DNA of 64,000 nt from Segetibacter aerophilus (GTDB taxonomy: Bacteria; Bacteroidota; Bacteroidia; Chitinophagales; Chitinophagaceae): assembly GCF_007991655.1 (NCBI RefSeq), contig NZ_BJYT01000005.1, positions 186,001 to 250,000 on the forward strand, read 5' to 3'. Numbering within the stretch: position 1 is the stretch's first letter; each line of letters opens with the position of its first letter. Of this stretch, positions 6,721 through 59,755 are shown in pieces. Made by a program: the position numbers and the translations under genes. The notes below the pieces were generated by a model, which saw only the letters and a list, made by a program, of their open reading frames with translations, had not been told where the DNA came from and ran no database searches.

Positions 6721-6740
6721 GTTGTGTCACACCCTTCAAC
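6721..6740 (-). repeat. Dispersed repeat core, GTGACACAAC type (left arm of pair)
   Basis: On the minus strand the core reads GTTGAAGGGTGTGACACAAC, followed by AAAAG. A hairpin after it is not convincing in this copy. It faces the copy at 6789 across a 48-base spacer. Confidence 0.65.
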
Positions 6741-6788
6741 CGCATATTCTCAAAGCAGCAAAAACAGGCTGAATTTGTTTAAACTAAG

Positions 6789-6831
6789 GTACAAGAGTGC
6801 GACGCAACAAAAGCATTATAGCATTACCAAC
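6789..6831 (+). repeat. Dispersed repeat, GCGACGCAAC type (right arm of pair)
   Basis: The core GTACAAGAGTGCGACGCAAC occupies 6789-6808. A weak inverted repeat follows within about 25 bases (AGCATT, loop ACC, AACGCT, one mismatch). This copy matches the family consensus exactly. Confidence 0.7.
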
Positions 6832-6886
6832 GCTGGGTTAATAAATCATACATATTGGAAAGGAATCAAATTGTGCTTTGGTGAAA

Positions 6887-7996
6887 CTAAGTCGCCAGAA
6901 ACTGGTCGTGAATAAAATCTGCCACGGAAACGAGACTATTAGTTTCTTTAAATACAGCTAGCTGACGGTCGGCGCCCGTGCCATTTTCAAGCATTTTATG
7001 TACGTGGGCAATGGCATGCCTGCTTCCCAGCTGGTCTACTACGTCGTCAACGAAATCGAGTAACTCGTAAATTAGCACGCGCGTGTTTACCTCTGACTCT
7101 TTTCCGAAATCTATCATTGTTCCATCAATACCATATCTGCCAGCGCGCCATTTATTTTCATTAATCAGCAGGCGAGAGTACATGATAAAATTTAAGTTTT
7201 TACTACGAAGCAGGTAAAGCTTCGCACAGATGGCCTGGAACAAAGCAGCAATAGCGATCGTTTCATTAATCGTCATTGGTACATCACAAATGCGAAATTC
7301 AACCGTATTAAAAAACGGATGAACTCTTAAATCCCACCAGATCTTTTTAGCGTTGTCGATACAATTGGTCTTTACAAGCAGTTTTATATAACTGTCATAA
7401 GCCTCTATACTTTCGAAAAAGTCAGGTATACCGGTGCGGGGAAACTTGTCAAATACCTTTGTTCGAAATGATTTATAACCTGTTAGCCTGCCCTCCCAAA
7501 AGGGAGAGTTCGTGCTGAGTGCATACACGTGCGGAAGAAAATAACGGGCAGAATTAGCAATATGAATGGCCATTTCGCGGCTCTCCATTCCCACATGCAC
7601 GTGTAGACCGAAAATAAGATTGCTGCGTGCAGCCTCCTGCAATTCATTAACTATCGCGTTGTACCGCGCGTGGTCAGTAATTAGTTGTCGTTCCCAATGG
7701 CTAAAAGGGTGTGTACCCGATGCACCCACCCATAATCCCAGGTCTCCCGCAATGTGCGAGATGGTATTTCTTAGCGTCGTTACGTCGCGTAATGCAACGT
7801 CTATATTTTCGCAAATATCAGTGCCTACTTCAACCACTGCCTGGTGCATCTCGGCCTTTACCTGGTCGCGAATAACCTTTTGGCCCTCAGAAACGATTTT
7901 CTGTTCGTGACTTTTCAATTCACGCGACTGTGGATCCATAACCATGTATTCTTCCTCTATACCTAAAGTAAAGTGCTTATAATTGATTGGTCCCAT
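6887..7996 (-). CDS. YbdK/GCS2-family carboxylate-amine ligase
   Basis: A 369-residue protein of the glutamate-cysteine ligase family 2 (GCS2). The N-terminal LGIEEEYMVMDP is the hallmark nucleotide and metal site of the family, and IFGLHVHVGM, 'FRICDVPMT' and 'NKWRAGRYGIDG' are further conserved blocks. E. coli YbdK, the nearest known relative, has only weak glutamate-cysteine ligase activity, so the natural substrates are uncertain. The enzyme should couple ATP cleavage to amide-bond formation in the cytoplasm. An ATP-grasp gene lies 127 bases upstream in the same direction and an esterase gene is divergent from that one, suggesting a small amide or peptide-like product, but this is inference. 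Confidence 0.87.
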   Translation of the reverse strand: MGPINYKHFTLGIEEEYMVMDPQSRELKSHEQKIVSEGQKVIRDQVKAEMHQAVVEVGTDICENIDVALRDVTTLRNTISHIAGDLGLWVGASGTHPFSHWERQLITDHARYNAIVNELQEAARSNLIFGLHVHVGMESREMAIHIANSARYFLPHVYALSTNSPFWEGRLTGYKSFRTKVFDKFPRTGIPDFFESIEAYDSYIKLLVKTNCIDNAKKIWWDLRVHPFFNTVEFRICDVPMTINETIAIAALFQAICAKLYLLRSKNLNFIMYSRLLINENKWRAGRYGIDGTMIDFGKESEVNTRVLIYELLDFVDDVVDQLGSRHAIAHVHKMLENGTGADRQLAVFKETNSLVSVADFIHDQFLAT

Positions 7997-8123
7997 AGTT
8001 ACTAATGTGAAAATTTAAAAATGTGAAGATTTGAAAATGTATCTGCTTCGCGCTAACTCGTGGTCAATTCATTTCTTTTCCAAAAACTGAGACATTGAGA
8101 TATTGAGTTATTTTCAAATTGGT

Positions 8124-9077
8124 TCAAATTAGGTTCTGACTGCTGCTGCTTCGTTTTACATATTCACCCCAAGTGAGGTTATCTTTTGCGGGTTCGTTAG
8201 ATTGAGCTTTTTCTATTGCAAAAGTTGCGGCTGTTTCTACGACCCAGTCAAAGTTTTCCTGTCCAACACTATTTATATCTGCGTCAGGAGCCGGATTGCA
8301 AAAATCAATAGCATAGGGAACGCCATCACGTAACGCCAGTTCTACTGTATTAAAATCGTAGCCGAGGTATTTGTTTATTCGCAAAACAATTTCCTCCATT
8401 TCTTTCAGCTTTTCTGCACTTGGAGAAAAATCAGCTACATACCTAAGATGAAATGGATTTCTTGGCTCGTAAGGCATTATGCGAACGTACTTTCCGCCAA
8501 TGCAATAACAACGGTAGTATTCTTCAAAGATGATTTCTTCCTGCAGCAACATAACCAGTTCGCCCGTTTCTCCATGCTTTTGCAAAAACTCGTCTTTGTT
8601 TTCTAACCTGTATACGCTTTTCCAACCGCCACCGGCAAATGGTTTCATATAAGCAGGAAATCCGATGTAGTTAAAAATCCCATCCCAGTCTAAAGGATAG
8701 GCAAGATTGCTGAATGACTCCCCGGTAGTGTCAGGAGGTAATTGGTAAGATGGTAGTATGACGGTTTTTGGAACCGGAACTCCTATTTTAGTAGCGAGGC
8801 AATTGTTGAAAAACTTCTCGTCAGCACTCCACCAAAAGGGGTTATTGATAACAGCCGTTCCGCATAAAGCTGCATTTTTAAGATAAGCACGATAGAAAGG
8901 AACATCTTGGCTGATACGATCGATGATAACCGCATACTCCGTTGGTTCTCCCTGCACAACTTTTTCTATTCTTACCGGTTCAGCGATAATTCCGTCTATT
9001 CCTTTGCTGTTTACCCTATCAATAAATGCTGTAGGAAAACTTCTTTCTTTTCCATGAAGGATGCCAATCTTTTTCAT
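8124..9077 (-). CDS. ATP-grasp family protein
   Basis: A 317-residue soluble protein with ATP-grasp organisation: an N-terminal alpha/beta part starting IGILHGKERSFP, a central nucleotide-binding region with a glycine-rich loop (PFAGGGWKSVYR) preceded by YMK, and a C-terminal metal-binding segment (ELALRDGVPYAIDFCNPAPD) with the expected acidic and Asn residues. ATP-grasp enzymes join a carboxylate to an amine or thiol through an acyl-phosphate. The substrate is unknown. It neighbours a second ATP-dependent ligase (6887-7996) and diverges from an esterase gene (9345-10178). I recall this trio as a recurring neighbourhood in Bacteroidota, without a proven product. Confidence 0.82.
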   Translation of the reverse strand: MKKIGILHGKERSFPTAFIDRVNSKGIDGIIAEPVRIEKVVQGEPTEYAVIIDRISQDVPFYRAYLKNAALCGTAVINNPFWWSADEKFFNNCLATKIGVPVPKTVILPSYQLPPDTTGESFSNLAYPLDWDGIFNYIGFPAYMKPFAGGGWKSVYRLENKDEFLQKHGETGELVMLLQEEIIFEEYYRCYCIGGKYVRIMPYEPRNPFHLRYVADFSPSAEKLKEMEEIVLRINKYLGYDFNTVELALRDGVPYAIDFCNPAPDADINSVGQENFDWVVETAATFAIEKAQSNEPAKDNLTWGEYVKRSSSSQNLI

Positions 9078-9344
9078 AAGCTGTTTGTTTTTGAAAATGT
9101 ATAGAATGAGCTGTTGTTGCTATTTTGATTTTTCAAGATACAGGTATCTAGACATAAATAATGTACCACGTACCTTAGCTGCTGCCAGATTATTTTAATT
9201 TTTTATATAACTGGTTTACCTGATACAATCATTCCTCACCTTTAATGCGTAAGGGATTATTTAAATAAATATCTCAATAGAGGCGGCTTAATTGTAGCAA
9301 CGAAAATTTTAGAAGCAACATTACTTTTAGCTTTACTTATAATT

Positions 9345-10178
9345 ATGGTGCAAGGAAATATAGCAATTCAAGAAAAAACTTACTCTACATTAAGGATCGA
9401 GGAACGAAAACTTTATTCAGAATATTTGCAAAGGGATGTAATCATTGACGTCTACCTTCCTAATAAATTGGATCTTACAAAAGGCGTCGATCTACTGCTA
9501 GTTAATGATGGACAAGATTTGAGAACAATGGAGTTTGCGGCTATCCTTGACCCTTTGATTTTCTTAGGACAAATTCAGCCCCTACTCTATGTGGCCATTC
9601 ATTGCGGCCCGGATAGAATGAACGAATACGGAACAGTTTATAGCGCCGATTACAAAGGGAGGGGAGCAAGGGCAGGCTTGTATAGCAAGTTTGTTTTAGA
9701 TGAATTGCTGCCGTTTTTGCAAAGCGAATTTGCCGTATCTTCCTTCAATAATAAATCTTTTGCCGGTTTCTCTCTCGGTGGATTAAGCGCGTTAGACATG
9801 GTATGGAATCACTATCAAGAGTTTACAAATGCGGGGGTATTTAGCGGATCTCTTTGGTGGCGAAGGCGTGGTTACGAAGACGAAGGTTACGACTGGGATA
9901 AGGATCGGATTATGCATTTGCAGGTGCAGAAAGGAAGCTATCATCCGTCGCTCCGGTTCTTTTTCGAATGCGGTTGTCTTGATGAGACAGCAGACAGAAA
10001 TAACAATGGTATAATAGATTCAATTGAAGACACAACAGACCTTATTGAAGATTTAAAAAACATCGGTTACCACGACGATCAAATCCGTTACCTACAACTT
10101 GAAGACGGTAAACACAACATTGAAACCTGGGCAAGCGCTTTTCCAAAGTTTCTAAAATGGGGTTGGGGGAAAAGGTAG
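9345..10178 (+). CDS. Esterase D-type alpha/beta hydrolase with EF-hand-like loop
   Basis: A 277-residue protein of the putative esterase family (Esterase D / Fes-like). The nucleophile elbow is GFSLGG with Ser143; the C-terminal GKHNIETW supplies the likely catalytic His257; 'LLVNDGQD' near residue 52 is also typical. No signal peptide, so probably cytoplasmic. Unusually, residues 217-228 (DRNNNGIIDSIE) fit a canonical 12-residue EF-hand loop, with ligands at positions 1, 3, 5, 9 and 12 and Gly at 6. The gene diverges from the ATP-grasp gene and is followed by a repeat copy and a very strong two-way terminator. The real substrate is not known. Confidence 0.85.
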   Translation: MVQGNIAIQEKTYSTLRIEERKLYSEYLQRDVIIDVYLPNKLDLTKGVDLLLVNDGQDLRTMEFAAILDPLIFLGQIQPLLYVAIHCGPDRMNEYGTVYSADYKGRGARAGLYSKFVLDELLPFLQSEFAVSSFNNKSFAGFSLGGLSALDMVWNHYQEFTNAGVFSGSLWWRRRGYEDEGYDWDKDRIMHLQVQKGSYHPSLRFFFECGCLDETADRNNNGIIDSIEDTTDLIEDLKNIGYHDDQIRYLQLEDGKHNIETWASAFPKFLKWGWGKR

Positions 10179-10202
10179 ATCGGTAATGGCAGGAAGTTTT
10201 TT

Positions 10203-10253
10203 GAAGCCAGCAGCAAAGCAGTTTTCAGCTTCTCTTGCGTCGCGCTCTTGTAC
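10203..10253 (-). repeat. Dispersed repeat with hairpin, GCGACGCAAG type
   Basis: On the minus strand the core GTACAAGAGCGCGACGCAAG (10253 to 10234) is followed by a hairpin with stem GAAGC/GCTTC (10203-10232) and a 20-base loop. It lies between the esterase stop and the terminator. Confidence 0.65.
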
Positions 10254-10283
10254 TTTTTCTATTTATTCGGCTTAGCGAAATTT

Positions 10284-10332
10284 GCATAAAAAAGAGCCGA
10301 ACCTGGATGACAGGTTCGGCTCTTTTTTATGC
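10284..10332. terminator. Bidirectional terminator, 22-bp perfect stem
   Basis: Bases 10284-10305 pair perfectly with 10311-10332 around a 5-base loop (GATGA). The stem has A-tracts and T-tracts at its base on both sides, so it can stop the esterase transcript (plus) and the Oar-like receptor transcript (minus), which converge here. Confidence 0.95.
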
Positions 10333-10343
10333 TTTTATTGTTA

Positions 10344-13300
10344 TTAGTTAAATAGGTATTTGATCCCGAATTGCATCTGCCAACGAGAAAGAATGCTCGT
10401 ACTGTTAGTAAAACTTGCAGTACGTGGAATTTGATTTGTCGCGTCTTGGTAAGGGAACGAGAAGCTCGGCTTTCCATCTGCAGTCAAACCTTCAAAAGTC
10501 AACAACTGGTATCCGGAAGCATTGCTTGACAACGTCGGGGTTTTAAGCAATCCCCAATACTTGTTTACAAAGTTTCCTGCGTTGATCAAATCTACAGTCA
10601 GGCGTAGCGTGTGCTTATCTTTTCCGGAGTTGAAATAAATATCCTGTGTAAGGTTTAAATCAAGTCTTTTGTAGAATGGATATACGAACTGGTTAGCCTG
10701 CGCATATTCACCTCTGTGAGCACTTAAATACTTATCCTGTTTGATGTAATTGTCCAGCTGAGAATAAATCTGTGCAGGAGTTCTAAGGTCGGTACTTGTA
10801 CCCGTTCCTAATCCACCTGACCCAACTTTCACAAGGTTAATTTCGCTTTGATCTTTAGGAATGTAGACTAGGTCATTTGTATTACCATCTCCATTTAAAT
10901 CATTGCTATAAATATATGAACTGGTGCCAGAAGGAGAGGCTTCAAAAATGGCCCCTAGTGAAGTAGCAAAATGTTTAGCGTAGGCAACTTTGTAAGACGC
11001 TGCAACAATCACCCTGTGCGGTTGATAAAAAGAAGCATAACCTAAAGTCGGTGCATTAGGATCGGTATTGCTAACCGCTCTTGCGCTCCACAACGAAGAG
11101 GCAGTACTACCACCTTCCGCAATATTTCTCGCATCGCTGTAGGTATAAGCTGCACTTACGTACAAGTTTTTAAAGCTCTTTTGTACACGGCCTGTAAGTG
11201 TGTAAGAATAACCTGCATTAGCATTTTTCATCAGGATAGCCGTACCAATTGAAGGATCTGCTAAAGTGTTATTAGCAAAACTACTTGCGGTTGGCTTGTT
11301 GTAGTAGTACTTGTTGCTTGCATACATCTGGTAAGACGTTCCGCTTGCGGCAATATAACGGGGCCTATTATCTACGCCTGACAGCGTAAACCCATTTGAC
11401 TCATTCAGATTTAGGTTCTGGTAATAAACTGCATTAATATCTTTAGAGTACGTTCCCTCAACTGTAAATATCCAGTCACCCGCTAACCTCTTATCAATAG
11501 CTAAACTAGATTTTAGAACTGTAGGATATTTAAAATTCTTATCAGTTAAGGCAACACTATAACTTGTATTTGCCTTTCCAGCAGTAGGCTTTGCGATGCT
11601 TGCATTATAAGCTACACCTGACCCGTTTACTATAGGGCTATTTGCATTGGTAGCTACCGATGGAGTCCCAATAGTTTGTACTGCGCCAAATTGGATACCA
11701 TTGTTACTTGCCTGGTTACTTAACCACACGAAAGGAGGGGGGCCTGAGAAAATACCCGCGCCGCCTCTGATTTGTAAGCTTTTGTCGCTTTTCACATCCC
11801 AGTTAAATCCTACTCTTGGAGAAAAGATTACAGCATTACCAGGAGCCTGGCCGATATTATAAGATTCTCCGTTTTTGAATTTTAATGCATCAAAATATGG
11901 ATTATCAGTAAAGTCTTGTCTATAAATAGTCATGTCGAAACGAAGACCATAAGTCAAAGTGAAATTATTTGTAGCGCGCCACTTGTCCTGTGCAAAAACA
12001 CCTAATTCAGTGGAACCAGCGTAAGCAAAAGGAAATTCTCCACCTGGCAGAGCAGAATATTGCAGATAATAATTTCTTGAATTCGCTGCTCCGTAAAGAG
12101 CGCTGTTCCTAAAATCATTCAAGCTGTTGTACTGGTAAACTCCCTGGTATCCTGGTGCAAAAGCATTTTCGTATTTACGGTAATAGTCTTGCGTACCGGC
12201 CGTGATTTCGTGTTTTCCCTTGTACAGCGTAACGATGTCGGAGAACTGATACACGTCCGTATTCAGGATATTGTTATACGTGTACATTTCGTATCCAAAC
12301 GAAGTAAAGACGTTACCTGAGCCATCTAAAATATCAACGAATGGCATAGTCGCTGAAGGCGAATGAGGAGAACGGAAATCACGCAAAGCTGTGTAGCCGA
12401 CCTGTAGCTTATTAGACAACTTGCTGCTAATTCTCGAATTTAACTCGGCAATCACAATATTAAAGTTGTTGTTGATTCCGTAGCCAGCTGAGAAGAAAGG
12501 CAAGCCAGTATTATTGGCCGAACCCGCTCCACTAGTTACGAGACTAGTACCATTATTTGGCCTGCTACTGCTTGGAAATTGGTCAGCATACGACTTCAAA
12601 TAATTGTACTTAATGGTAAATGTATTTTTGCTATTGATGTTCCAATCAATTTTGGCCGTTATTTTATTACTGGTTGTCTTGAAATTATATCCCTGGTATG
12701 CACCCGGATCATAATTGTAAGTCTTCTTTAAAAGGTCAGATAATGCGTTCAAAGAATCTGAGTTAGCGCGGGAAACACTTCCTGTAACCGCAGGGCTTGA
12801 AGCATTTGATGCAGTAAAACTCGTAGCCGGCAATTCTTGTCTTACCTGTTCACCACTAAAGAAGAAGAACAACTTGTTTTTTATAATCGGTCCGCCTACA
12901 GTGAAACCGCTTAAGTTATATTTAATCGGAGTTCTTGCAACGTCAACAGCGCCTACATGATAACCTTGCGTACCTGCTCCTTTCAAATAAGTGTATACAG
13001 AAGCTTTAAACTGGTTAGTTCCGCTACGTGTTACCGAGTTGATGCCCGCACCCGAAAAGCCTCCTTGCCTAACATCGTAAGGCGCAACGTTTACCTGGAT
13101 TTGCTCGATAGCTTCTATGCTAATCGGTTGAGAACTTGTTTGACCTCCCAAAGTTCCTGATAAGCCAAACGAATTGTTGAAGTTAGCACCGTCGACTGTG
13201 AGGTTATTATACTGGCTGCTTCTGCCACCAAAACTTAAGCCGTTAGAACTAGGTTCAAGTTTTGTAAAATCCTGCAATGAGCGGTTGATCGTCGGCAATC

Positions 13301-13736
13301 TTTCAATCTGGCTGCGCCCAATTATTTCCTGGCTACCTGTATGACTCGAGTTGAACACTGAGTTCTGTCTCATGGTAGTTACTACTACTTCCTGCAATGC
13401 TCCCGAAGATGCAGTTAGATCAAAATCTGCCTTGAACTCCTGGCCCAACAAAAGGAAAACGCTATCATGTTTTGCTGTTTCAAACCCCACATAGGAGACC
13501 GTGATAAGATAGGGACCGCCGACACGAAGGTTGGGTAAATTGTAACGTCCTTCTTTTCTCGTTGTGGTCGCCGCCTTTGTTCCGGTGGGAACATTCAGCG
13601 CAGTCACTGTCGCGCCGACAAGCGGTGCTTTACCATCTGTCACTGTTCCCGTTATTTCGGATGTAGTTTCCTGCGCAAACAGGTAGAGGGGCGTAAAAAG
13701 AACGAGAATAAATTTTGTAATTCTCTTAGTTAGCAT
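10344..13736 (-). CDS. Oar-like TonB-dependent receptor (copy 1)
   Basis: An 1130-residue outer-membrane protein. Signal peptide to about residue 21 (ends LFAQ), then a carboxypeptidase-regulatory-like domain (SEITGTVTDGKAPLVGATVTA, ending VSYVGFE), the 'LQEVVVTT' linker, a plug with NNLTVDGANFNNSFG, and a large C-terminal barrel ending in FGIKYLFN. Oar-type receptors lack a classical SusD partner. The substrate is unknown. The next gene upstream on the same strand (13934-17083) is a clear paralogue of the same layout, but a terminator (13822-13850) lies between them, so they are probably transcribed separately. Confidence 0.9.
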   Translation of the reverse strand: MLTKRITKFILVLFTPLYLFAQETTSEITGTVTDGKAPLVGATVTALNVPTGTKAATTTRKEGRYNLPNLRVGGPYLITVSYVGFETAKHDSVFLLLGQEFKADFDLTASSGALQEVVVTTMRQNSVFNSSHTGSQEIIGRSQIERLPTINRSLQDFTKLEPSSNGLSFGGRSSQYNNLTVDGANFNNSFGLSGTLGGQTSSQPISIEAIEQIQVNVAPYDVRQGGFSGAGINSVTRSGTNQFKASVYTYLKGAGTQGYHVGAVDVARTPIKYNLSGFTVGGPIIKNKLFFFFSGEQVRQELPATSFTASNASSPAVTGSVSRANSDSLNALSDLLKKTYNYDPGAYQGYNFKTTSNKITAKIDWNINSKNTFTIKYNYLKSYADQFPSSSRPNNGTSLVTSGAGSANNTGLPFFSAGYGINNNFNIVIAELNSRISSKLSNKLQVGYTALRDFRSPHSPSATMPFVDILDGSGNVFTSFGYEMYTYNNILNTDVYQFSDIVTLYKGKHEITAGTQDYYRKYENAFAPGYQGVYQYNSLNDFRNSALYGAANSRNYYLQYSALPGGEFPFAYAGSTELGVFAQDKWRATNNFTLTYGLRFDMTIYRQDFTDNPYFDALKFKNGESYNIGQAPGNAVIFSPRVGFNWDVKSDKSLQIRGGAGIFSGPPPFVWLSNQASNNGIQFGAVQTIGTPSVATNANSPIVNGSGVAYNASIAKPTAGKANTSYSVALTDKNFKYPTVLKSSLAIDKRLAGDWIFTVEGTYSKDINAVYYQNLNLNESNGFTLSGVDNRPRYIAASGTSYQMYASNKYYYNKPTASSFANNTLADPSIGTAILMKNANAGYSYTLTGRVQKSFKNLYVSAAYTYSDARNIAEGGSTASSLWSARAVSNTDPNAPTLGYASFYQPHRVIVAASYKVAYAKHFATSLGAIFEASPSGTSSYIYSNDLNGDGNTNDLVYIPKDQSEINLVKVGSGGLGTGTSTDLRTPAQIYSQLDNYIKQDKYLSAHRGEYAQANQFVYPFYKRLDLNLTQDIYFNSGKDKHTLRLTVDLINAGNFVNKYWGLLKTPTLSSNASGYQLLTFEGLTADGKPSFSFPYQDATNQIPRTASFTNSTSILSRWQMQFGIKYLFN

Positions 13737-13821
13737 ATTTAGGGGTTTATTTTTTACTTGTGATTTACCTACCTACTTCAAAAGGAGCTGATCTTATTAT
13801 CTTATATCTTAATATAATTAA

Positions 13822-13850
13822 AAAGAGGCTGCTTGTCCGGCAGCCTCTTT
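13822..13850 (-). terminator. Terminator between the two Oar-like genes
   Basis: The stem AAAGAGGCTGC (13822-13832) pairs with 13840-13850 around a 7-base loop. On the minus strand it follows the copy 2 stop and runs into TTTTTAATTAT, so it ends that transcript before copy 1. Confidence 0.88.
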
Positions 13851-13933
13851 CGTTAGAGAAACAAAAATACTTACAAACTGTTAAAAGCGCTTCAATTAAG
13901 CTTTTATTAATCGAGAAACAAAAAGTTGTTGTA

Positions 13934-17282: not shown

Positions 17283-17295
17283 TACAAACCGGTAT

Positions 17296-23397: not shown

Positions 23398-23554
23398 AAA
23401 CTGCAGTCCAAATTCTACAAAATAATAACATATAGATTGATACTGCTATACAAATCCTTCCATTGCACGCAATTGATTGTTGACGGATGTGAAGCAAATA
23501 AAATGCTACGATTAACCTGCGGAAAAGCCTGATCTTGACGCTATATAAATAATA

Positions 23555-23606
23555 GTTCAAGAGTGCGACGCAACAAAGGATGAGAAGAGTTACTAATGCC
23601 GGTAAC
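23555..23606 (+). repeat. Dispersed repeat with hairpin, GCGACGCAAC type
   Basis: The core GTTCAAGAGTGCGACGCAAC (23555-23574) is followed by AAAGGATG and a hairpin GTTAC/GTAAC (23589-23593 with 23602-23606). It lies in the 261-base gap between tamB and the sugar dehydrogenase gene, where I see nothing else. Confidence 0.7.
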
Positions 23607-23658
23607 AACATTTTTAAACTCTACTCACAGCTGATGCATTGCGCTACCCGTTCACTCA

Positions 23659-37470: not shown

Positions 37471-37574
37471 CGCCTCGAAATCTAATTTCCCATATTTTAG
37501 AGAAGATTTAAATAGGATTGCCAATTACACGTTCTCTGCAAATCATATTCTTAATAGGTGAAAAAAGAGTTTCT

Positions 37575-37616
37575 GTAGAAGGGAGTGACACAAGGATGTT
37601 GTACTAACAGTACAAT
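37575..37616 (+). repeat. Dispersed repeat with perfect hairpin in the fusA leader
   Basis: Core GTAGAAGGGAGTGACACAAG (37575-37594, GTGACACAA type), then GATG, then TTGTAC/GTACAA (37599-37604 with 37610-37615) around TAACA, with an extra G-T closing pair. It lies 48 bases before the fusA start on the coding strand. Confidence 0.7.
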
Positions 37617-37663
37617 AGTTGGTTACTACAAAAAAAGTCAATAACAATTTCAAATAAAAAGTC

Positions 37664-39867: not shown

Positions 39868-40000
39868 GTTTTTGGATCTTAATCCCAGGGTTTGCTCCTT
39901 AGCGTAATAGTTGCAGCGCAATCACTTCATCTGACTGTTGTTAAGAAACTGCAGTTTTTACCCGGAGCTCCTGCAGCAAACCAGTCACTACTACCCATAA

Positions 40001-46113: not shown

Positions 46114-46160
46114 GGATTTAAAGCTTCTATACTGTTTTCGTTTTTATGTTTTTGTGTCTC

Positions 46161-46204
46161 GGCTGCAGTTCACGATTAGCCTCGGTTGTGTCACTCACTT
46201 CGAC
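46161..46204 (-). repeat. Dispersed repeat with hairpin, GTGACACAAC type (left arm of pair)
   Basis: On the minus strand the core GTCGAAGTGAGTGACACAAC (46204 to 46185) is followed by CGAG and a hairpin with stem GGCT/AGCC (46161-46181). It faces the copy at 46266 across 61 bases. Confidence 0.7.
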
Positions 46205-46265
46205 TGTATCTTTTCAAATTATCGTCTCTCTACATCATACTTTCCTGTTCAGGAGAGAAAGTATT

Positions 46266-46318
46266 GTTGAAGAGTGCGACGCAAGGATGCCTGGTAGTAG
46301 CACGACCATTTTGGCTCC
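46266..46318 (+). repeat. Dispersed repeat with two-part hairpin, GCGACGCAAG type (right arm of pair)
   Basis: Core GTTGAAGAGTGCGACGCAAG (46266-46285), then GATG overlapping a two-tier hairpin: an outer stem GGA(t)GCC with GGCTCC (46285-46291 with 46313-46318) and an inner TGGT/ACCA (46292-46295 with 46305-46308). Confidence 0.7.
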
Positions 46319-46350
46319 TTATAAAATCCCTATCAAAAACCTTTAAACTA

Positions 46351-49977: not shown

Positions 49978-50034
49978 CGTTTTATTTAGTTTAAAATTCT
50001 GAGTTTAAAGTTTTGTGTTTTATTTCTTTTTTGA

Positions 50035-50082
50035 GCTAACAGTTAACCTTTCTTCATCTTTTGTTGTGTCACTCACTTGTAC
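50035..50082 (-). repeat. Dispersed repeat with hairpin upstream of ilvC, GTGACACAAC type
   Basis: On the minus strand the core GTACAAGTGAGTGACACAAC (50082 to 50063) is followed by AAAAGATG and a short hairpin GTTAA/TTAGC with loop CTG (50035-50047, one G-T pair). It lies on the ilvC coding strand, 58 bases before the start. Confidence 0.65.
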
Positions 50083-50124
50083 TTTTTGTTTTTTCTTCAT
50101 CATCCCAACCTCACCCTCGATGCC

Positions 50125-51124: not shown

Positions 51125-51169
51125 CTGTTTAAGTAAAAAGTAAAAATTTAAAAGTAAAAAAGGCTTCCG

Positions 51170-51559: not shown

Positions 51560-51592
51560 TTTTTAATTTTAATTTTTGCCTTTTAACTTTTG

Positions 51593-53368
51593 CTACGACA
51601 ACCTTATCTCACTCACACTGCATCCCTGTGGTACCATTGGAAATACGTTGTCTTCTTTGCCTACCATTACTTCAAGTAAGTATGAGCCGTCATGGTCGAG
51701 CATGGTTTTAATAGCATTTTGTAAATCTGCCCGAGCCGACACCTTTTGGCCTTCGACGCCATAGCCTTTAGCAACCATTATATAATCGGGGCTCGTGATG
51801 TCAACAAATGAATAGCGTTTGTCATGAAACAGTTGTTGCCATTGTCTTACCATTCCAAGGAATTCATTGTTAAGAATTACAATTTTTACATCCACCTCGG
51901 TTTGCATAATCGTTCCTAGTTCCTGGATAGTCATTTGGATACCGCCGTCACCAATAATAGCAATTACAGTGCGTTCGGGTGCGCCAAATTTTGCACCTAT
52001 AGCAGCTGGCAATCCAAATCCCATTGTACCTGCGCCGCCAGAAGTAATGTTGCTTTTAGACTGGTTGAATTTTGCATAACGACATGTCACCATTTGGTGT
52101 TGACCAACATCAGTCACCATTATGGCATTACCACCAGTCAACTCATTAATAACATTAATCACTTCTCCCATGGTAAGCTTTTCACCTTCGGGGTTTAGTT
52201 CTTTGCGTATTACTGTATCTTCTTCGATTTGTTTATGCTCGTTGAATCTTTGAAGCCACTCCGGGTGTTGTCTTGCTTCTACCAGTTGAGTAAGGATCGG
52301 TAAAGTTTCTTTGCAATCGCCCCAAACACCCACCGTCGACTTTACATTCTTATCAATCTCGGAAGGATCAATATCAAGGTGAACTACTTTAGCCTGTTTT
52401 GCATATTTATCAAGGCGACCAGTGACGCGATCATCGAAGCGCATACCGATAGCGATCAAGACATCACAATCGTTGGTAAGCACATTTGGTCCGTAGTTGC
52501 CATGCATGCCTAGCATTCCTACATTCAAGGGATGGTCAGTCGGGATAGCACTCGCGCCAAGAATTGTCCATGCAGCAGGAATGCCGCTTTTTTCAATAAA
52601 AGCTTTGAACTCTTTTTCAGCTTTACCCAGGATGACGCCTTGACCCCAAAGAACAAATGGTCTCTGGGCTTCGTTTATAAGTTGCGCAGCTTCTTCGATA
52701 AACTCTTTTCTTACAACCGGTTTTGGCCTGTAGCTGCGTATGTGGTCACAACGTTTGTATCCAGAATATGCAAACTTATCCAGCTGCGCATTCTTGGTAA
52801 TGTCTATCAACACGGGCCCGGGACGACCAGTTTTAGCAATGTGAAATGCTTTTGCCAGAACAGTTGGAATCTCTGAGGCATCAGTAACCTGGTAGTTCCA
52901 TTTTGTGATAGGTGTTGTTATGTTTATTACATCCACTTCCTGGAAAGCATCGGTACCTAACAGGTGCGCATACACCTGGCCGGTAATACAAACAAGGGGA
53001 GTACTGTCTATCATCGCATCTGCCAAACCTGTAACCAGGTTGGTGGCACCAGGGCCACTTGTCGCAAAAACGACTCCTACTCGTCCGGAAGCGCGAGCAA
53101 ACCCTTGCGCAGCATGAATACCACCTTGTTCATGACGAACAAGAATGTGTTTTAATTTATCGTGGTAATCGTATAAGGCATCATAAATAGGCATGATAGC
53201 TCCGCCTGGATAACCGAAAATTGTATCGACACCTTCGGCGATAAATGCTTCAAGAACGGCTTGTGAACCACTTAACTTTCCTGGCTCCTTAGCCGGAGCT
53301 TTTGGAGTTGCATCTGGTTTGATCAGTATTTGTTCTTCTATGTCTAGAATCGAATTCACTAAATTCAT
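51593..53368 (-). CDS. ilvB: Acetolactate synthase large (catalytic) subunit
   Basis: A 591-residue thiamine-diphosphate and FAD enzyme that makes acetolactate or acetohydroxybutyrate. A 30-residue leader precedes the N-terminal domain LSGSQAVLEAFIAEGVDTIFGYPGGAIMPIYDALYDY; RHEQGGIHAAQGFARASG, TSGPGATNLVTGLADAM and the C-terminal GDGGIQMTIQELGT (ThDP-binding GDG...N region, with ILNNEFLGMVRQWQ) are all intact. It lies 85 bases after ilvD on the same strand. Confidence 0.96.
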   Translation of the reverse strand: MNLVNSILDIEEQILIKPDATPKAPAKEPGKLSGSQAVLEAFIAEGVDTIFGYPGGAIMPIYDALYDYHDKLKHILVRHEQGGIHAAQGFARASGRVGVVFATSGPGATNLVTGLADAMIDSTPLVCITGQVYAHLLGTDAFQEVDVINITTPITKWNYQVTDASEIPTVLAKAFHIAKTGRPGPVLIDITKNAQLDKFAYSGYKRCDHIRSYRPKPVVRKEFIEEAAQLINEAQRPFVLWGQGVILGKAEKEFKAFIEKSGIPAAWTILGASAIPTDHPLNVGMLGMHGNYGPNVLTNDCDVLIAIGMRFDDRVTGRLDKYAKQAKVVHLDIDPSEIDKNVKSTVGVWGDCKETLPILTQLVEARQHPEWLQRFNEHKQIEEDTVIRKELNPEGEKLTMGEVINVINELTGGNAIMVTDVGQHQMVTCRYAKFNQSKSNITSGGAGTMGFGLPAAIGAKFGAPERTVIAIIGDGGIQMTIQELGTIMQTEVDVKIVILNNEFLGMVRQWQQLFHDKRYSFVDITSPDYIMVAKGYGVEGQKVSARADLQNAIKTMLDHDGSYLLEVMVGKEDNVFPMVPQGCSVSEIRLS

Positions 53369-53453
53369 GCGCTTTTATTTTATGCCTCTCATTGATAAAG
53401 GCCTTAAATAATCTATGTTCAAATAAATCTTTTATTTCTGGTTATACTCACCT

Positions 53454-55136
53454 TTAAGCTTCGTCCGTTACGCATCCATTTGCAGCACTGGTAACGTGCC
53501 TTGCATATTTAAACAATATTCCTTTGGTAGCTTTCAATGCGGGTTGTTGCCAGTTGGCTTTTCTTTCTGCAATGGTCGCTTCGTCTACTTTTAGGTTGAG
53601 GGTATTGTTTATTGCATCAATTTCTATGATGTCATTATCTTTTACAAATGCAATCAGACCACCTTCATGCGCTTCAGGGGTGATGTGACCTACTACAAAA
53701 CCATGCGTACCGCCACTAAATCTTCCGTCAGTTATAAGTGCAACGCTTTTGCCTAAACCGGCACCGATAATAGCACCTGTAGGTTTCAACATTTCCGGCA
53801 TTCCGGGAGCTCCTTTTGGTCCTATGTTTCTGATAACAACTACGTCACCGTGTTTTACTTTACCACTTGAAAGTCCTTCGATCAAATGTTTTTCTCCGTC
53901 GAAGACTCTTGCCGGTCCTTCGAAACGCTCACCTTCTTTACCGCTTATTTTTGCAACACTACCACCTTCGGCAAGGTTGCCATACAGTACTTGCAAATGC
54001 CCTGTCGCTTTCAAAGGCGTTTCAAGAGGCATTATTATTTTCTGTTGTTCAAAGTCAAGATCCGGTGCATCAGCGAGGTTTTCTGCAACTGTTTTTCCGG
54101 TGACAGTTAAACAATCTCCATGAAGCAAACCCTTACTTAATAAGTATTTCATAACGGCAGGCACGCCGCCGTGTTGATGGAGGTCTTCCATCAAGTATTT
54201 ACCGCTCGGTTTAAAATCTGCCAGTACCGGTATTTTATCGCTGATTGTTTGAAAATCATCTTGTGTCAATGGAACATCTACACTCTTAGCCATCGCAATT
54301 AAATGCAATACTGCATTTGTACTACCGCCTAATACCATCACGACTGTAATTGCATTTTCAAATGCTTCACGCGTCATGATATCCCGTGGCTTTATATCTT
54401 TTTCGAGCAATATTTTTATTGCTGCACCAACCGCTTGACACTCTTGCTGTTTTTCAGCACTTAATGCAGGATTGGATGAAGAATTCGGCAAACTCATTCC
54501 CAAAGCTTCAATAGCACTTGCCATTGTGTTTGCCGTATACATACCACCGCAAGCTCCCGCTCCCGGACAAGCACTCTTGATGATGCCTTTAAAATCTGCT
54601 TCGCTAAGGTTGCCGGCAATTTTTTGTCCCAATGCTTCAAACGCACTTACAATATTCAGGTCTTCACCTTTGTAATGTCCTGGCGCTATTGTTCCACCAT
54701 ATAACATGATAGAAGGGCGGTTCAACCTGCCCATTGCAATGATAGAACCGGGCATATTTTTATCACAGCCAGGTATAGCAATGATCGCATCATAATATTG
54801 AGCACCCGCATTAGTTTCGATACTATCTGCTATTAAGTCGCGGCTTACAAGGCTATAACGCATACCATCTGTACCCATACTGATACCATCACTTACCCCG
54901 ATGGTATAAAAACGTAAACCCAACAAATCTTTCGTGTTATTAATATTTTCTCTTACGACCGTAGCAAGGTCGTTTAGGTGCATATTACAAGGATTGCCAT
55001 CCCAACCCATACTTACAATACCGACCTGCGCCTTGTCGAAATCTTCTTCTTTAAATCCTATTGCATACAACATTGCCTGGGCGGCAGGTTGTGTTACGTC
55101 TTGAGTGATGGTCTTACTGTACTTGTTTAATTCCAT
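53454..55136 (-). CDS. ilvD: Dihydroxy-acid dehydratase
   Basis: About 560 residues from the ATG at 55136 ([13 protein letters not shown]); the frame is open 10 residues further, to 55166. This iron-sulfur enzyme dehydrates dihydroxy acids to the 2-oxo acids of valine and isoleucine. Cluster cysteines appear in [22 protein letters not shown] and [31 protein letters not shown] and [20 protein letters not shown] are further family blocks. Length is normal. It is followed by ilvB and preceded by leuB (77 bases) in the same direction. Confidence 0.96.
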
Positions 55137-55213
55137 TCTGTAGTATGTTTTGGTTGTGTTACCCATTACCAGTCAACCTGGAACTAGTAAGGGGTAACAA
55201 GCAGCATTGTATA

Positions 55214-56329
55214 TTATATTATCGTCGATTTGCTTATTACCATGTTTTCCTTATTCATTCTGGAGGGGATTCTGTTTTCGACATAATCAGAAACAAGGTC
55301 TCCAATCGTTGCGGTTGAATAATTATTAATTGAATCAATATCTTTTGTTAAGAAGCCATTTGCAAGGTTCCAATGAACTGCTTCTCTAATTAATTCGGCT
55401 TCTTCCGCGAGGCCAAAATAATCCAGCATCATAGCTGCAGATAAAATAGAGCCGTTGGGATTGGCAATATTTTTACCTGCAGCCTGAGGATAACTTCCAT
55501 GAATCGGTTCAAATAAGGCAAGTTTATTTCCGACAGATGCAGAAGGTAATAAACCGATCGAACCGGTGATAACGCTAGCTTCATCGCTCAAAATATCGCC
55601 AAACATATTTTCTGTTAGAATAACATCAAATTGTTTTGGATTGATAATTATTTGCATTGCAGCATTATCGACAAAAAGATAATTAACTGTCACATCCGGA
55701 TATTGTGTAGACATTTCCTGCACAACTTTTCTCCAAAGTCTTGATGTTTCCAGCACGTTGGCTTTGTCGACCAACGTAAGCACTTTTCTTCTTTGTTGGG
55801 CATAAGCAAAAGCAAGGTGTGCTATCCTTACTATTTCATCCCGATGGTATATGCAATCGTCAGAGGCCTCAGTTTTGTCTTCGTTCAATTGTTTGTTGCC
55901 GAAGTATATTCCGCCCGTTAGTTCCCGGAAAATCACAAAATCAACACCCTCAATCCTGCTACTCTTCAGGGGCGATAAATGCTGCAAGGGAGCGTAAGTA
56001 GTTATAGGCCTTATATTGGCAAAAAGTCCTAATTCTTTTCTTAATTTAAGTAAGCCATCCTCCGGTCTAACTTTCGCCGAAGGGTCATTATCGTACCGGG
56101 GATGACCAATGGCACCGAGTAAAACAGCATCACTTCTATGACAGATTTGTAGCGTTTCACCAGGTAAGGCATCTCCTGTCTTATCAATTGCACTCGCACC
56201 CATTAGGCAGTGTTCGTAAAAGAACTGATGTTTGAATTGTCGGGCAACTGCATCCAAAACTTTAATCGATTGTTGCGTTACTTCGGGTCCTATTCCGTCT
56301 CCTAATATTACCGCTATCTTCTTTTGCAT
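55214..56329 (-). CDS. leuB: 3-Isopropylmalate dehydrogenase
   Basis: About 371 residues from the ATG at 56329 (MQKKIAVILGDGIGPEV); the frame extends 9 residues further, to 56356. This NAD enzyme oxidises and decarboxylates 3-isopropylmalate in leucine synthesis. Blocks seen are GDGIGPEV, LLGAIGHPRYD, LRKELGLFANIRP, IFRELTGGIYFG, TLVDKANVLETSRLWR with the catalytic Lys, and the Mg and NAD regions MFGDILSDEASVITGSIGLLPSAS and FEPIHGSYPQAAGKNIANP. The GSYPQAAG sequence differs from the common GSAPDIAG but is seen in Bacteroidota. It lies 120 bases after leuA; leuC and leuD, needed between the two steps, are not here. Confidence 0.95.
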   Translation of the reverse strand: MQKKIAVILGDGIGPEVTQQSIKVLDAVARQFKHQFFYEHCLMGASAIDKTGDALPGETLQICHRSDAVLLGAIGHPRYDNDPSAKVRPEDGLLKLRKELGLFANIRPITTYAPLQHLSPLKSSRIEGVDFVIFRELTGGIYFGNKQLNEDKTEASDDCIYHRDEIVRIAHLAFAYAQQRRKVLTLVDKANVLETSRLWRKVVQEMSTQYPDVTVNYLFVDNAAMQIIINPKQFDVILTENMFGDILSDEASVITGSIGLLPSASVGNKLALFEPIHGSYPQAAGKNIANPNGSILSAAMMLDYFGLAEEAELIREAVHWNLANGFLTKDIDSINNYSTATIGDLVSDYVENRIPSRMNKENMVISKSTII

Positions 56330-56389
56330 ATCTATCCTCTTTTCTTCTTTTTGCAATTGCCCGTCAGAAAGTTCAATAGTAATAATACA

Positions 56390-56435
56390 GTCGAACGTAA
56401 TGCGACGGAACGATGTTTAATAGCAGCAATCTGTT
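56390..56435 (+). repeat. Divergent copy of the dispersed repeat upstream of leuB
   Basis: The core GTCGAACGTAATGCGACGGAAC (56390-56411) has changes and a 2-base insertion against the consensus. It is followed by GATG and a hairpin TAA(tag)CAG with CTGTTA around CAAT. Weakest copy; antisense to leuA-leuB. Confidence 0.45.
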
Positions 56436-56449
56436 AGTTCCCTAAAAAT

Positions 56450-57622
56450 TTATAATGCACCTGACATTGCCGGCTGATATTGTTCGGCGAGGTTGCGTAA
56501 GTCTGCTTCTTCTACTTCCTTCTTTTTATCGGCAAGCTGCAAAAAGCTTTCATACAACACATCTATATCGTTCCGGTTAAAATCAAAACCAATTTTTTGA
56601 AAGCGATGAGCTAAAGCACTTCTTCCGCTACGAGCGGTTAATACGATCTTGCTTCCATCTGCACCAACCTCATCAGGGTTGATTGTTTCGTAAGTAGAAG
56701 AGTCTTTTAAAAATCCATCTTGGTGAATGCCGGACGAATGTGAAAAAGCATTTGCACCGACAATGGCTTTATTTGGTTGAACCGGCACACGCATCGTATC
56801 AGCAACAAGACGGCTCAGAGGGTTTAATTGTTTTGTCTTGATATTTGTAAAAAAGCCTAATTGTTTGTGCTGTTTTATGATCATCACAACTTCTTCAAGA
56901 GAGGTATTCCCCGCTCTTTCGCCAAGTCCGTTTATGGTACATTCTATTTGTCTTGCACCATTGATGACACCTGAAATAGCGTTTGCGGTTGCCACCCCAA
57001 GATCGTTATGGCAATGGCATGAAATAACTGCTTTTTCTATGTTAGAGACGTTATTTTTTAGGTAGGCGATTTTTGCACCATACTGCCAAGGAAGGCAATA
57101 CCCTGTAGTATCAGGAATATTCACAGTGGTTGCACCTGCTTTTATAACGGCCTCTATAACTCTTGCCAGGTATTCGTCTTCTGTACGGCCTGCATCTTCT
57201 GCATAAAACTCAACATCATCAGTAAAGTTTCTTGCCCATTTTACGCATTGAATGGCTCTTTGTAAAATGTCTTCGCGATTAGAATTGAACTTGCCTTTTA
57301 TGTGATAATCAGAGGTGCCAATACCTGTATGTATTCTTGGACGTTTAGCATACTTCAGCGCTTCACCTGCAACTTCGATGTCTTTTTGTACAGCCCTTGT
57401 TAATCCGCAGACCGTTGCATTTTTTATAGTTTTAGATATCAGGTTTACAGACTCAAAGTCGCCGGGACTTGAGATGGGGAAGCCTGCTTCAATAATATCT
57501 ACTCCTAAATCTTCCAGTCTTTTTGCCAGATCTACTTTTTCAAGTGTGTTAAGTTTACAACCCGGCACCTGCTCGCCATCGCGCAGAGTTGTATCAAAAA
57601 TGAACACCTGATTGCCTTGCAT
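56450..57622 (-). CDS. leuA: 2-Isopropylmalate synthase, short form
   Basis: A 390-residue enzyme that condenses 2-oxoisovalerate with acetyl-CoA, the first leucine step. The barrel shows [45 protein letters not shown] (metal-binding HxH), [17 protein letters not shown] and [16 protein letters not shown]. The protein ends where the usual C-terminal regulatory (LeuA dimer) domain would begin (family length is about 500 residues in E. coli), so leucine feedback through that domain is not expected. I see no frameshift or domain remnant downstream; the next bases belong to the intergenic region before leuB. Short forms are known in Bacteroidota, so this is probably normal for the lineage. It is the first gene of the block. 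Confidence 0.9.
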
Positions 57623-57711
57623 AAATGAATTTTTATAAAGATGAAAGCAGGCAGTTTATATTTGTAACAGCTCTATAACTAGCTAGATTACAGCTAAAAC
57701 TACCATATAGG

Positions 57712-57743
57712 CTAAATTAGCGACGATTGAATGGCAGTTCAAA
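57712..57743 (-). promoter_or_regulatory. Candidate promoter of the leu/ilv block
   Basis: On the minus strand TTTG (57743-57740), a 20-base spacer, then TAATTTAG (57719-57712, one mismatch to TAnnTTTG). The leuA start follows after about 90 bases. I see no leader peptide or attenuator hairpin with a T-tract in that leader. Confidence 0.42.
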
Positions 57744-57833
57744 TTATTGTTCATTCTTTTTTACACTAATGAAATTGGCCACGCGTCGGCTAAAACCCTT
57801 GCTGGTCTTGCCTTTCATAATAAAAATACTACG

Positions 57834-59387
57834 ATGCCCAACAGGTCGACAGATGCGCTCTTTCAATTGATACATACAATGGAGAAGTCTGAAAAGCGCA
57901 ATTTTAAATTATACGTAACTAGAAACACTGCCACTGAGGATCTGAAGATCATACAGGTGTTTGATGCGCTCGATAAAATGACTGAATATGATGAAGAGTT
58001 GCTACTGAAGAAAAACCCTTCTGTAAAAAAGCAACAGTTGTCTAATATCAAGGCACATTTATACAAGCAATTGTTGGCGAGCTTAAGAGTACTAAAAACA
58101 ACAGACAACATTCAGATTCAACTGCACGAGCAACTGGATTATGCTAACCTGCTGTACAATAAGGGGCTTTACATGCAGAGTTTGAAAATGCTTGAAAAGC
58201 TAAAAGAGACTGCAAAAGAGTACAACCAGGTAACTTTTATGATGCAGGCTTTGTTTCTCGAGAAAAATATTGAGGTGCTTCATATTACCCGGAGCATGGA
58301 AGACAGGGCAGAAGTACTGGCATCCGAAGCTGAACAATCTACGCGCCGATTGGGTAGAATAACACAACTATCAAACCTTGCATTAAAGCTTTATAGCTGG
58401 TACATAAAGCATGGCCATGCGCGCAACGAGCAAGATGCTCAGGCTATCAAGCAATACTTCGAAGAGTCATTGCCTTTTGAAGGCGAGCAGGCTACAGGCT
58501 TCTACGAAAAACTTTACTTCTTTCAAAGCTATAGTTGGTTCGGTTTCATTTTGCAGGATTTCCTGATGTATTACCGTTATACACAAAAATGGGTCGACCT
58601 TTTTGAGAAGGAGCCATACATGATTGCTATAGAAACAGCGCACTATATCAAAGGAATGCACAACCTGATTAGTGCCAATTTCGATTTAAAAAATGGTAAA
58701 AAATTTAATGAGTACCTGGAGAAGTTTGAGCAATTTTCAGAGACAGATCTCGTAACCGGAAACGATAATAACCGGGTGCAGTCTTTTGTGTACATCCATA
58801 TTGCCAAGCTCAACAAGCATTTTATGGAAGGCACTTTTACGGAGGGCCTGCAACTCGTTCCCAACATCGAGCAGAAGATAAAAGAGTATTGGTTATATCT
58901 CGACCGTCACCGCATACTTGTCTTTTACTACAAGATCAGTTCACTGTACTTTGGTAGCGGCGACTACGATAATACCATCACTTACTTAAATAAGATCATT
59001 AACTGGAAGGTTGACCTGCGAACAGATCTGCAATGTTATGCTCGCCTGTTGCATTTGATAGCGCATTATGAAATCGGCAATTTCGATATTCTAGAGTACC
59101 TCATCAAGTCGGTCTACCGTTTCATGGCAAAAATGGAAAACCTTAGTATTGTTGAAGAGGAGATTTTTCGGTTCCTTAGAAATTCATTTCACCTGAGCTA
59201 TCGCAAGCTGCGGCCCGAGTTTGAGAAATTGCTGACCAAGTTAAAAAGTATAGAAAACAATCGTTTTGAGACGCGTGCGTTTGCCTACCTCGACATCATT
59301 TCGTGGTTGGAAAGTAAAGTGTATCAAAAGCCGTTGCAGGATATCATCAAAGAGAAAAGTAATAAAACGTTCCAAGGCAGCCAGTAA
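57834..59387 (+). CDS. Helical-repeat (TPR-like) cytoplasmic protein, unknown function
   Basis: About 517 residues from the ATG at 57834 (MPNRSTDALFQLI); the frame is open to a TTG at 57747 but the extra part is not protein-like. The whole protein is rich in amphipathic helices with Tyr, Leu and Lys, such as LLYNKGLYMQSLKMLEKLKETAKEYNQ and ISSLYFGSGDYDNTITYLNKIINW, which look like degenerate TPR units. There is no signal peptide or membrane segment. TPR-like proteins usually mediate protein contacts. I recall similar proteins of this size as conserved hypotheticals in Chitinophagaceae, but I know no function. It diverges from leuA. Confidence 0.72.
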   Translation: MPNRSTDALFQLIHTMEKSEKRNFKLYVTRNTATEDLKIIQVFDALDKMTEYDEELLLKKNPSVKKQQLSNIKAHLYKQLLASLRVLKTTDNIQIQLHEQLDYANLLYNKGLYMQSLKMLEKLKETAKEYNQVTFMMQALFLEKNIEVLHITRSMEDRAEVLASEAEQSTRRLGRITQLSNLALKLYSWYIKHGHARNEQDAQAIKQYFEESLPFEGEQATGFYEKLYFFQSYSWFGFILQDFLMYYRYTQKWVDLFEKEPYMIAIETAHYIKGMHNLISANFDLKNGKKFNEYLEKFEQFSETDLVTGNDNNRVQSFVYIHIAKLNKHFMEGTFTEGLQLVPNIEQKIKEYWLYLDRHRILVFYYKISSLYFGSGDYDNTITYLNKIINWKVDLRTDLQCYARLLHLIAHYEIGNFDILEYLIKSVYRFMAKMENLSIVEEEIFRFLRNSFHLSYRKLRPEFEKLLTKLKSIENNRFETRAFAYLDIISWLESKVYQKPLQDIIKEKSNKTFQGSQ

Positions 59388-59755
59388 GATTATGGCTTTT
59401 GCAGAAAAGCTTTTAAAAACCTTAAAAGTATTTGTGAGCCAAGCCTAGGTACTCTTATCATCGTTGTTGCGTCGCACACTTGTACGGTTTATCGGAATTC
59501 TGCCTTTGTCTGCTTATTACATTGAAAGCTATAATACCCTGAATTTGTGTGTTTAGTCCATTTAAAGAAAAGGTCGCTAAAGGGTTCAAACCTTGATATG
59601 GATAATCCAGACTTTTGATAAAAACCTATTGGAACAGTTCTTTCTTATATGTAGCGGCTTCATGTGACGTAAGAAGATTGTGCAGTTTTCAAATTAGAAT
59701 ATCGATTTAACTTTTATAATACCCGTACTTGCTAAACCAGCTGAAAAATTATTAG
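59388..59755. other. 368-base gap before the dicarboxylate symporter gene
   Basis: It holds one dispersed repeat copy with hairpin (59436-59485) close to the upstream stop. In the remaining 270 bases I see no gene, terminator or clear promoter. Confidence 0.5.
59436..59485 (-). repeat. Dispersed repeat with hairpin, GCGACGCAAC type
   Basis: On the minus strand the core GTACAAGTGTGCGACGCAAC (59485 to 59466) is followed by AACGATG and a hairpin GAG(ta)CC with GGCTC (59454 to 59436, TA bulge). Confidence 0.68.

Follow-up and report, generated by a model that had tools for sequence, protein, structure and literature searches.

An intergenic DNA element of Chitinophagaceae whose close neighbours rarely share an orientation

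The 64,000-nucleotide stretch of Segetibacter aerophilus DNA analysed here (assembly GCF_007991655.1, contig NZ_BJYT01000005.1, positions 186,001 to 250,000 of the forward strand; hereafter the window) carries copies of a short repeat. The repeat is a genuine DNA element that lies between genes, is restricted to one family and apparently has no name as yet. Neighbouring copies in the same orientation were scarce within a few kilobases of each other; in these genomes the scarcity is statistically strong, and general recombination explains it poorly. It points either to an enzyme, so far undescribed, that acts on pairs of sites or to a bacterial protein that organises the chromosome in an orientation-dependent way. 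With about even confidence, we read the repeat as a non-autonomous mobile DNA element of Chitinophagaceae, similar to repetitive extragenic palindromic (REP) sequences or miniature inverted-repeat transposable elements (MITEs), recognised as DNA and not RNA and with an unusual orientation rule. This rule, together with the occurrence of pairs made of two forms, is the surprising part. Present hundreds of times in a genome, the repeat shapes the DNA between genes in a large family of environmental bacteria.

When strands were shuffled over all element pairs on 2.15 Mb of long contigs from five genomes (the source genome, G000, and G006, G005, G003 and G013), nine direct pairs were seen below 3 kb compared to approximately 51 expected. 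The numbers of direct pairs seen and expected were 0 and 11.0 below 350 bp, 1 and 6.9 at 350-1000 bp, 1 and 10.3 at 1-2 kb, 7 and 22.7 at 2-3 kb, 17 and 21.9 at 3-4 kb, and 56 and 54.3 at 4-6 kb, respectively, and were as expected farther apart. Below 3 kb there were 4 direct versus 46 inverted pairs in G000 and 5 versus 43 in G006 and G005 together, counts that are not independent in that G000 and G006 have many elements in common by descent. By our reading of the counts, inverted pairs occurred at about their long-range density, indicating that direct pairs are missing and not that inverted pairs were added. When 539 elements were scanned independently with a weight matrix, an inverted partner was present within 250 bp upstream of 111 elements and downstream of 18, compared to 2 and 0 same-way partners, respectively. 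Moreover, pairs at 12-15 kb in the sparse G003 genome (27 elements) were 0 direct and 7 inverted, and the exact cores of G013 formed 1 direct and 5 inverted pairs below 3.5 kb. The orientation rule thus recurs, and its range varies between genomes.

Direct repeats are generally deletion-prone, and a range of a few kilobases would suit the mere deletion of direct neighbours by ordinary homologous or slipped recombination. However, random element pairs had a median of 9 exact bases in common, and pairs of different forms (described below) 7. Same-form pairs (5 direct versus 32 inverted) and mixed-form pairs (3 direct versus 31 inverted) were depleted alike at 350-3000 bp, and other intergenic 12-14-mers showed no shortage of direct pairs, in counts that include overlapping k-mers. 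Taken together, the short common stretches, the depletion in both classes and the normal behaviour of other k-mers make ordinary recombination a poor cause, and we give this explanation very little credence.

Close pairs were mostly divergent. At distances up to 260 bp there were 65 divergent, 11 convergent and 1 same-way pairs, some overlapping or orthologous loci being counted repeatedly. The long contigs of three genomes, G000, G006 and G005, had 15 divergent and 5 convergent pairs below 350 bp together with 243 single elements. Among 20 typed close inverted pairs on long contigs, form A was combined with form B in 17 (17:3; divergent 13:2, convergent 4:1). Both close pairs of the window had B on the left (minus strand) and A on the right (plus strand). 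In G020, nearly all copies read had an A-type core, and two upstream types were distinguished by eye; the five close pairs with both ends read by the scan each contained one of each upstream type, and a sixth pair (L374), in which the second copy has a core variant, looked alike. At 3-6 kb on the long contigs of the five genomes, same-orientation pairs tended to combine A with B and inverted pairs to be of the same form (p=0.0012), a result that is one among several tests and a lead only.

The two forms are defined by the core of the element. When 493 copies from several genomes were aligned, core columns 29 and 33 were C-G in 291 copies, T-A in 198 and other combinations in 4, so that 489 of the 493 copies belong to one of two linked forms, A (GCGACGC) and B (GTGACAC); column 27 tracked the form less strictly. 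These positions lie in an odd palindrome, GYGACRC, within the 20-bp core GTACAAGWGWGYGACRCAAC. In our view, two-fold recognition by a protein around the central A fits better than a hairpin, because the loop of a hairpin would be one to three bases. The whole element is asymmetric and approximately 77 bp long, with a conserved span of about -20 to +57 around the core. It consists of an AT-rich upstream module (GGYTGAATAAAG..), the core, a GATG box, a poorly conserved middle and the tail GCYGG..ACAAAAA. The GATG box, which an earlier note on the window, made from the sequence alone, had placed after the core in most copies, was present as a consensus but was partial only (47-86% per base overall; 55-86% in 98 copies of the source genome and 47-75% in the 493 copies). 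The idea that the GATG box begins a short peptide was considered and rejected: 44% of 283 ATG-bearing copies stopped within 12 codons in frame, compared to 62% and 58% in the remaining frames.

In the window, the consensus core with up to three mismatches gave five matches compared to none in 100 shuffles. The earlier note had listed ten copies with a shared core; a scan with up to five mismatches to the two consensus forms recovered nine of the ten, and nine scored between E=4.8e-10 and E=1.3e-3 with a profile made from copies of the source and related genomes, the copy at 56390 being weak (E=1.3). The family therefore stands, and the listed starts and strands agreed with ours. The same note had allowed that the core might occur only a handful of times genome-wide, but 110 exact cores were found in the source genome, compared to none for the reversed control pattern. 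A mismatch scan of 864 kb gave 99 copies and a profile scan of 1.23 Mb of the source genome gave 177 elements, the overall density being approximately 115-145 per Mb. No second high-copy 16-mer family, sought as an internal control, was found.

Exact cores occurred in 18 of 59 genomes, including the source genome. A sequence model matched in 28 of 36 genomes of the source's family and in none of the 23 genomes from elsewhere in the order. At least 15 matches were found in 20 of the 36 family genomes (termed element-rich, the other 16 being element-poor) and none in 8, with at most 77 candidates scored per genome, so that high counts are floors; G008, of the same genus as the source, had 11 matches. 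When public species genomes were searched with a pattern, at least 113 stretches were obtained, and the titles of those listed bore the names of Chitinophagaceae genera or the broader labels Chitinophagales, Sphingobacteriales or Bacteroidota. The 76-nt consensus had no match in plasmids and phages. Five contigs of G020 (C28, C66, C67, C85 and C86) began inside elements, and for this reason the repeat probably also breaks short-read assemblies.

Comparison of G000 with G006, which are 74-85% identical over long stretches where aligned, showed both gain or loss and retention of the element. Fifty-five of the 84 G006 elements could be mapped on G000: 39 were present, 13 were absent and 3 had only an element on the opposite strand. 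The form was retained at 36 of the 39 orthologous sites. Identity at these sites was 0.89 in the core, 0.50 in the upstream flank and 0.65 in the downstream flank, compared to 0.73 in the cores of random paralogues, the core value being somewhat inflated as decayed copies escape detection. Conservation of the core in place suggests a role on the host side, and the elements appear to be both mobile and kept. In G020, contigs C66 and C67 start with an identical 55-base element, as do C85 and C86, and within each of these two contig pairs the sequences part at the A-run or one base beyond it, a point that marks where the element ends downstream. Such exact 55-mers in different flanks point to recent copying. 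A self-comparison of the 1.23 Mb of the source genome revealed no recognisable insertion sequence-like multi-copy segment among the 60 matches listed out of 70.

Most copies lay between genes, as the earlier note had stated for all of its copies. With open reading frames (ORFs) taken as crude longest-ORF calls, 90 of the 99 copies in 864 kb were located between ORFs, 1 had no neighbour on one side and the remaining 8 overlapped an ORF call. The tail tended to sit near a gene. Among 264 copies on long contigs, 156 faced the 3' end of the next gene (median gap 41 bp) and 108 the 5' end (median gap 58 bp). Relative to genes, copies were oriented almost at random, convergent gaps being mildly over-represented (singles: 84 in -- gaps, 59 in ++ gaps, 54 convergent, 30 divergent and 15 inside an ORF call). 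A relation this mild led us to reject gene direction as what sets the orientation. A bias towards one replication strand was rejected likewise, the relation to GC skew being absent for form A (86:81) and slight for form B (78:54).

The earlier note had also proposed that a small hairpin follows the GATG box, with stems that change in sequence and remain paired, and had offered a structured RNA as one of its explanations. When 300 of 567 copies were folded, the region +20 to +58 had a mean folding z of 0.05 (standard error of the mean 0.06). The whole element had a mean z of -0.07, and the upstream and downstream stretches had -0.26 and -0.25, respectively, which indicates that folding is no stronger in the element than around it. 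In the 493 aligned copies, the outstanding covarying pair was located within the core and no consistent covarying stem was found outside it. Weaker Watson-Crick excesses at columns 27-65, 40-44, 48-53, 42-48 and 44-65 had columns in common, did not nest into a single stem and partly tracked the A/B form. The window had no Rfam match at the gathering threshold, only sub-threshold matches. These findings do not bear out the proposed hairpin, its stems having been tested as a class and not singly: only the core dyad stands out. Judged by the refuting condition that the earlier note had set, its claim of pairing fails and its claim of a high copy number holds. An RNA, structured or cis-regulatory, would account for the intergenic position, the conserved blocks, the many copies near gene 3' ends and the weak, non-nested pairing excesses, but with a folding z of about zero, no consistent covarying helix and orientation only mildly biased relative to genes, it is most improbable.

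A mobile element is the likely explanation of a repeat that is intergenic and high in copy number, uneven among relatives, gained or lost between species and present as 55-base copies in different flanks of G020; here the suggestion of a mobile repeat made in the earlier note is upheld. We propose that a putative protein acting in trans would read the core dyad and spread the element. Two direct elements within a few kilobases would be the substrate for a reaction removing one of them, or would be selected against by way of it, and inverted pairs would be tolerated. As in REPINs, it is probably the divergent A/B pair that transposes as a unit.

Several observations weigh against this reading. 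Three enzyme families were compared with element counts and none tracked the element. The core is kept in place better than expected of a dead insertion. The 55-mers of G020 lie at contig ends, where assembler overlap or strain mixture could give common ends, and a search for empty sites that were clean and showed a target duplication found none, the relatives compared being too diverged. The orientation rule itself was less strict in some sets. In G003, a looser effective cut-off (35 elements) gave two same-way pairs below 350 bp, 116918/117207 and 166600/166654, of which a stricter scan drops one member each. In 81 loci of other genera, picked for containing an exact core, there were 1 direct and 36 inverted pairs below 1 kb and 9 and 26 at 1-2 kb, but 22 and 25 at 2-3 kb, so that the effect was clear only below 2 kb; close pairs in these genera were not mainly A/B (10 of 25 mixed, 15 same-form). 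In 32 Segetibacter-labelled loci, picked in the same way, the effect was weaker, with 1 direct and 10 inverted pairs below 1 kb, 2 and 6 at 1-2 kb, and 6 and 10 at 2-3 kb.

Other explanations differ in which protein would act on the sites. The earlier note had pointed to a REP-associated tyrosine transposase (RAYT), and the elements could be REP sequences served by a RAYT or IS200-like HUH transposase, with direct pairs acting as left and right ends on one strand and being excised as single-stranded circles. A limit on the length of the single strand would fit the loss of direct pairs over a few kilobases, and the slight lean of form B to one strand relative to GC skew and the REP-like genomic distribution are in line with such a transposase. 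The source genome contains a RAYT-like Y1 transposase gene (contig C4, locus L079, 1108-1701, minus strand) with the motifs NHIH, WQQ and YMHNNP, which resembles subclass 2.6, and one form-B element lies approximately 390 bp from it. Subclass 2.6 in Bacteroidetes is described, in the available part of PMC6006769, with atypical flanking structures. However, among the family genomes, 13 of the 20 that are element-rich and 7 of the 16 that are element-poor gave RAYT-like matches, and several of these matches were fragments. Among 18 genomes examined, the element-rich G007 and G033 had no Y1_Tnp match. When 29 other RAYT loci of approximately 3.5 kb each were examined, any element was present in only 3, and there was no hairpin excess. 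The link to a RAYT is therefore not supported, and we regard this explanation as improbable. Subclass-1.2-like Y1 transposases were also considered as partners and did not fit the element counts. A further candidate is a tyrosine recombinase resembling integron integrases, for which direct sites would be excised, inverted sites would invert and genes would be captured between divergent elements. Contig C28 of G020 starts with an element followed by such a gene (locus L391, 532-1656, minus strand), whose best NCBIfam score was to the integron integrase TIGR02249 (184 bits, under the cut-off of 265). By eye, two large ORFs after this gene resemble a type III restriction-modification system. In G001 (contig C283, locus L404), an element on the minus strand lies just upstream of the start codon, as we read it, of a homologous recombinase, and the attI site of an integron would lie just upstream of the integrase start in the same way. 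Adjacency by chance is possible in both genomes because elements are dense. Homologues (E<1e-30) occurred in 11 of the 20 element-rich family genomes and in 5 of the 16 element-poor ones, neither G000 nor G006 had a match better than about 1e-21, and no element was present within about 600-700 bp on either side of the recombinase in G033 or in the one G004 flank read. No attC-type fold was detected by general folding and covariation, no attC model having been run. Sites of this recombinase are thus still less probable as an explanation.

Coverage of coding DNA by the other species bears on gene capture. In the mappable stretches of G000 and G006, mean coverage was 0.75 in divergent intervals (n=24) and 0.98 in convergent intervals (n=27; p=0.005), a difference that came late, after several comparisons, with intervals of the two genomes that are not independent, and that is a lead only. 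It would favour integrase sites. Nine intervals were covered to 0.6 or less, 7 divergent and 2 same-way, and by eye their contents look like ordinary accessory genes. At one orthologous divergent pair (G000 contig C2, 378547-379179; G006 contig C40, 19555-19717), a gene of 200 aa that looks by eye like a nucleosidase lies between the elements in G000, and only about 160 bp, possibly with a remnant of this gene, in G006. More generally, and tentatively, the elements may be orientation-coded sites of a DNA-level recombination or gene-capture system, in which A and B would form divergent units, direct neighbours would react and be removed, so that elements tend to alternate, and accessory genes would gather between divergent elements; we think this unlikely, yet deserving of attention. 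The elements could instead serve the host, with a chromosomal protein binding the dyad core to bridge or insulate, selection keeping neighbours opposite, and an old mobile phase having spread copies that are now useful. The high identity of the core relative to its flanks at the 39 orthologous sites, the retention of form there, the order relative to neighbours in spite of a mild relation to gene direction, and the inverted 12-15 kb pairs of G003 are all consistent with this. On the other hand, the requirement that both orthologues be detected favours conserved cores, and the uneven presence, with few matches in G008 and none in eight family genomes, indicates that the element is not essential. 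We consider a host function unlikely.

The copies in the window are as follows. The first two form a divergent A/B pair: a form-B element at 6684..6760 (minus strand, core 6721-6740, E=1.3e-3), which has an orthologous element in G006, and a form-A element at 6769..6845 (plus, core 6789-6808, E=1.1e-9), which has the exact consensus core and is present in G006. A form-A element lies at 10197..10273 (minus, E=3e-8). Directly upstream of this element, the one listed at 10253, is an intrinsic-terminator-like hairpin of approximately 13 paired bases with a T-run (about 10287-10323, minus), and two weak sub-threshold Rfam matches near 10258-10331 touch or adjoin the element and cover the hairpin. 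The form-A element at 23535..23611 (plus, E=4.8e-10) has a divergent pair at the corresponding place in G006, and the form-B element at 37555..37631 (plus, E=1.8e-6) is present there. A probable decayed copy on the minus strand, absent from the earlier list, lies within 39875..39995, which is the mapped interval and not the element itself, and is recognisable only by comparison with its orthologue in G006 (C33:2528). A second divergent A/B pair consists of form B at 46148..46224 (minus, E=1.8e-4) and form A at 46246..46322 (plus, E=9.3e-5), both present in G006, as is form B at 50026..50102 (minus, E=1.2e-6). The weak element at 56370..56446 (plus, E=1.3) has the GAACGTAATGCGACG variant core and an element at the orthologous place in G006, and the last, of form A, lies at 59429..59505 (minus, E=1.5e-9).

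A search of the open literature on repeats of Chitinophagaceae and Segetibacter and on REPs and REPINs of Bacteroidetes, with subscription journals mostly outside it, gave no title or abstract start that describes the element, and searches for the core strings returned only papers on unrelated subjects by their titles. In the available part of PMC3733652, repeats named CGTC are given for Bacteroidetes. The closest resemblance in distribution is to REPs and REPINs with their RAYTs (PMC6006769 and PMC3116915, available parts), which are likewise short, high-copy, intergenic and lineage-specific and occur as singles and inverted pairs. However, the element lacks their stable imperfect hairpin and their GTAG/GTGG-type 5' foot, having a partial GATG box with no hairpin excess after it, and it is not tied to a RAYT gene flanked by the repeat. 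REPs are also 20-40 bp long (PMC3733652), compared to 77 bp, and differ from the element in its scarcity of same-orientation neighbours at kilobase range. MITEs, such as those of Porphyromonas gingivalis (PMC4596501, available part), are similarly non-autonomous and dispersed, and a divergent pair looks like a single unit whose ends are inverted, but the ends of a pair are often of two different forms, and no target duplication or parent transposase was found. With respect to the terminal inverted repeats of MITEs, close inverted pairs do occur, but most copies are single (243 singles versus 20 pairs in G000, G006 and G005). Integron attC sites are alike in having a candidate tyrosine recombinase as neighbour in two genomes and in the frequent position near a stop codon, and differ in that the element shows no folding excess, is not found in arrays and has the integrase in only 11 of 20 element-rich genomes. 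Moreover, the core does not fit the attC consensus RYYYAAC/GTTRRRY. Finally, the element may be likened to DNA uptake sequences and uptake signal sequences (DUS/USS), which would likewise number in the hundreds and stay at their sites from one species to another, and would differ from them in being much longer and intergenic and in having an orientation rule.

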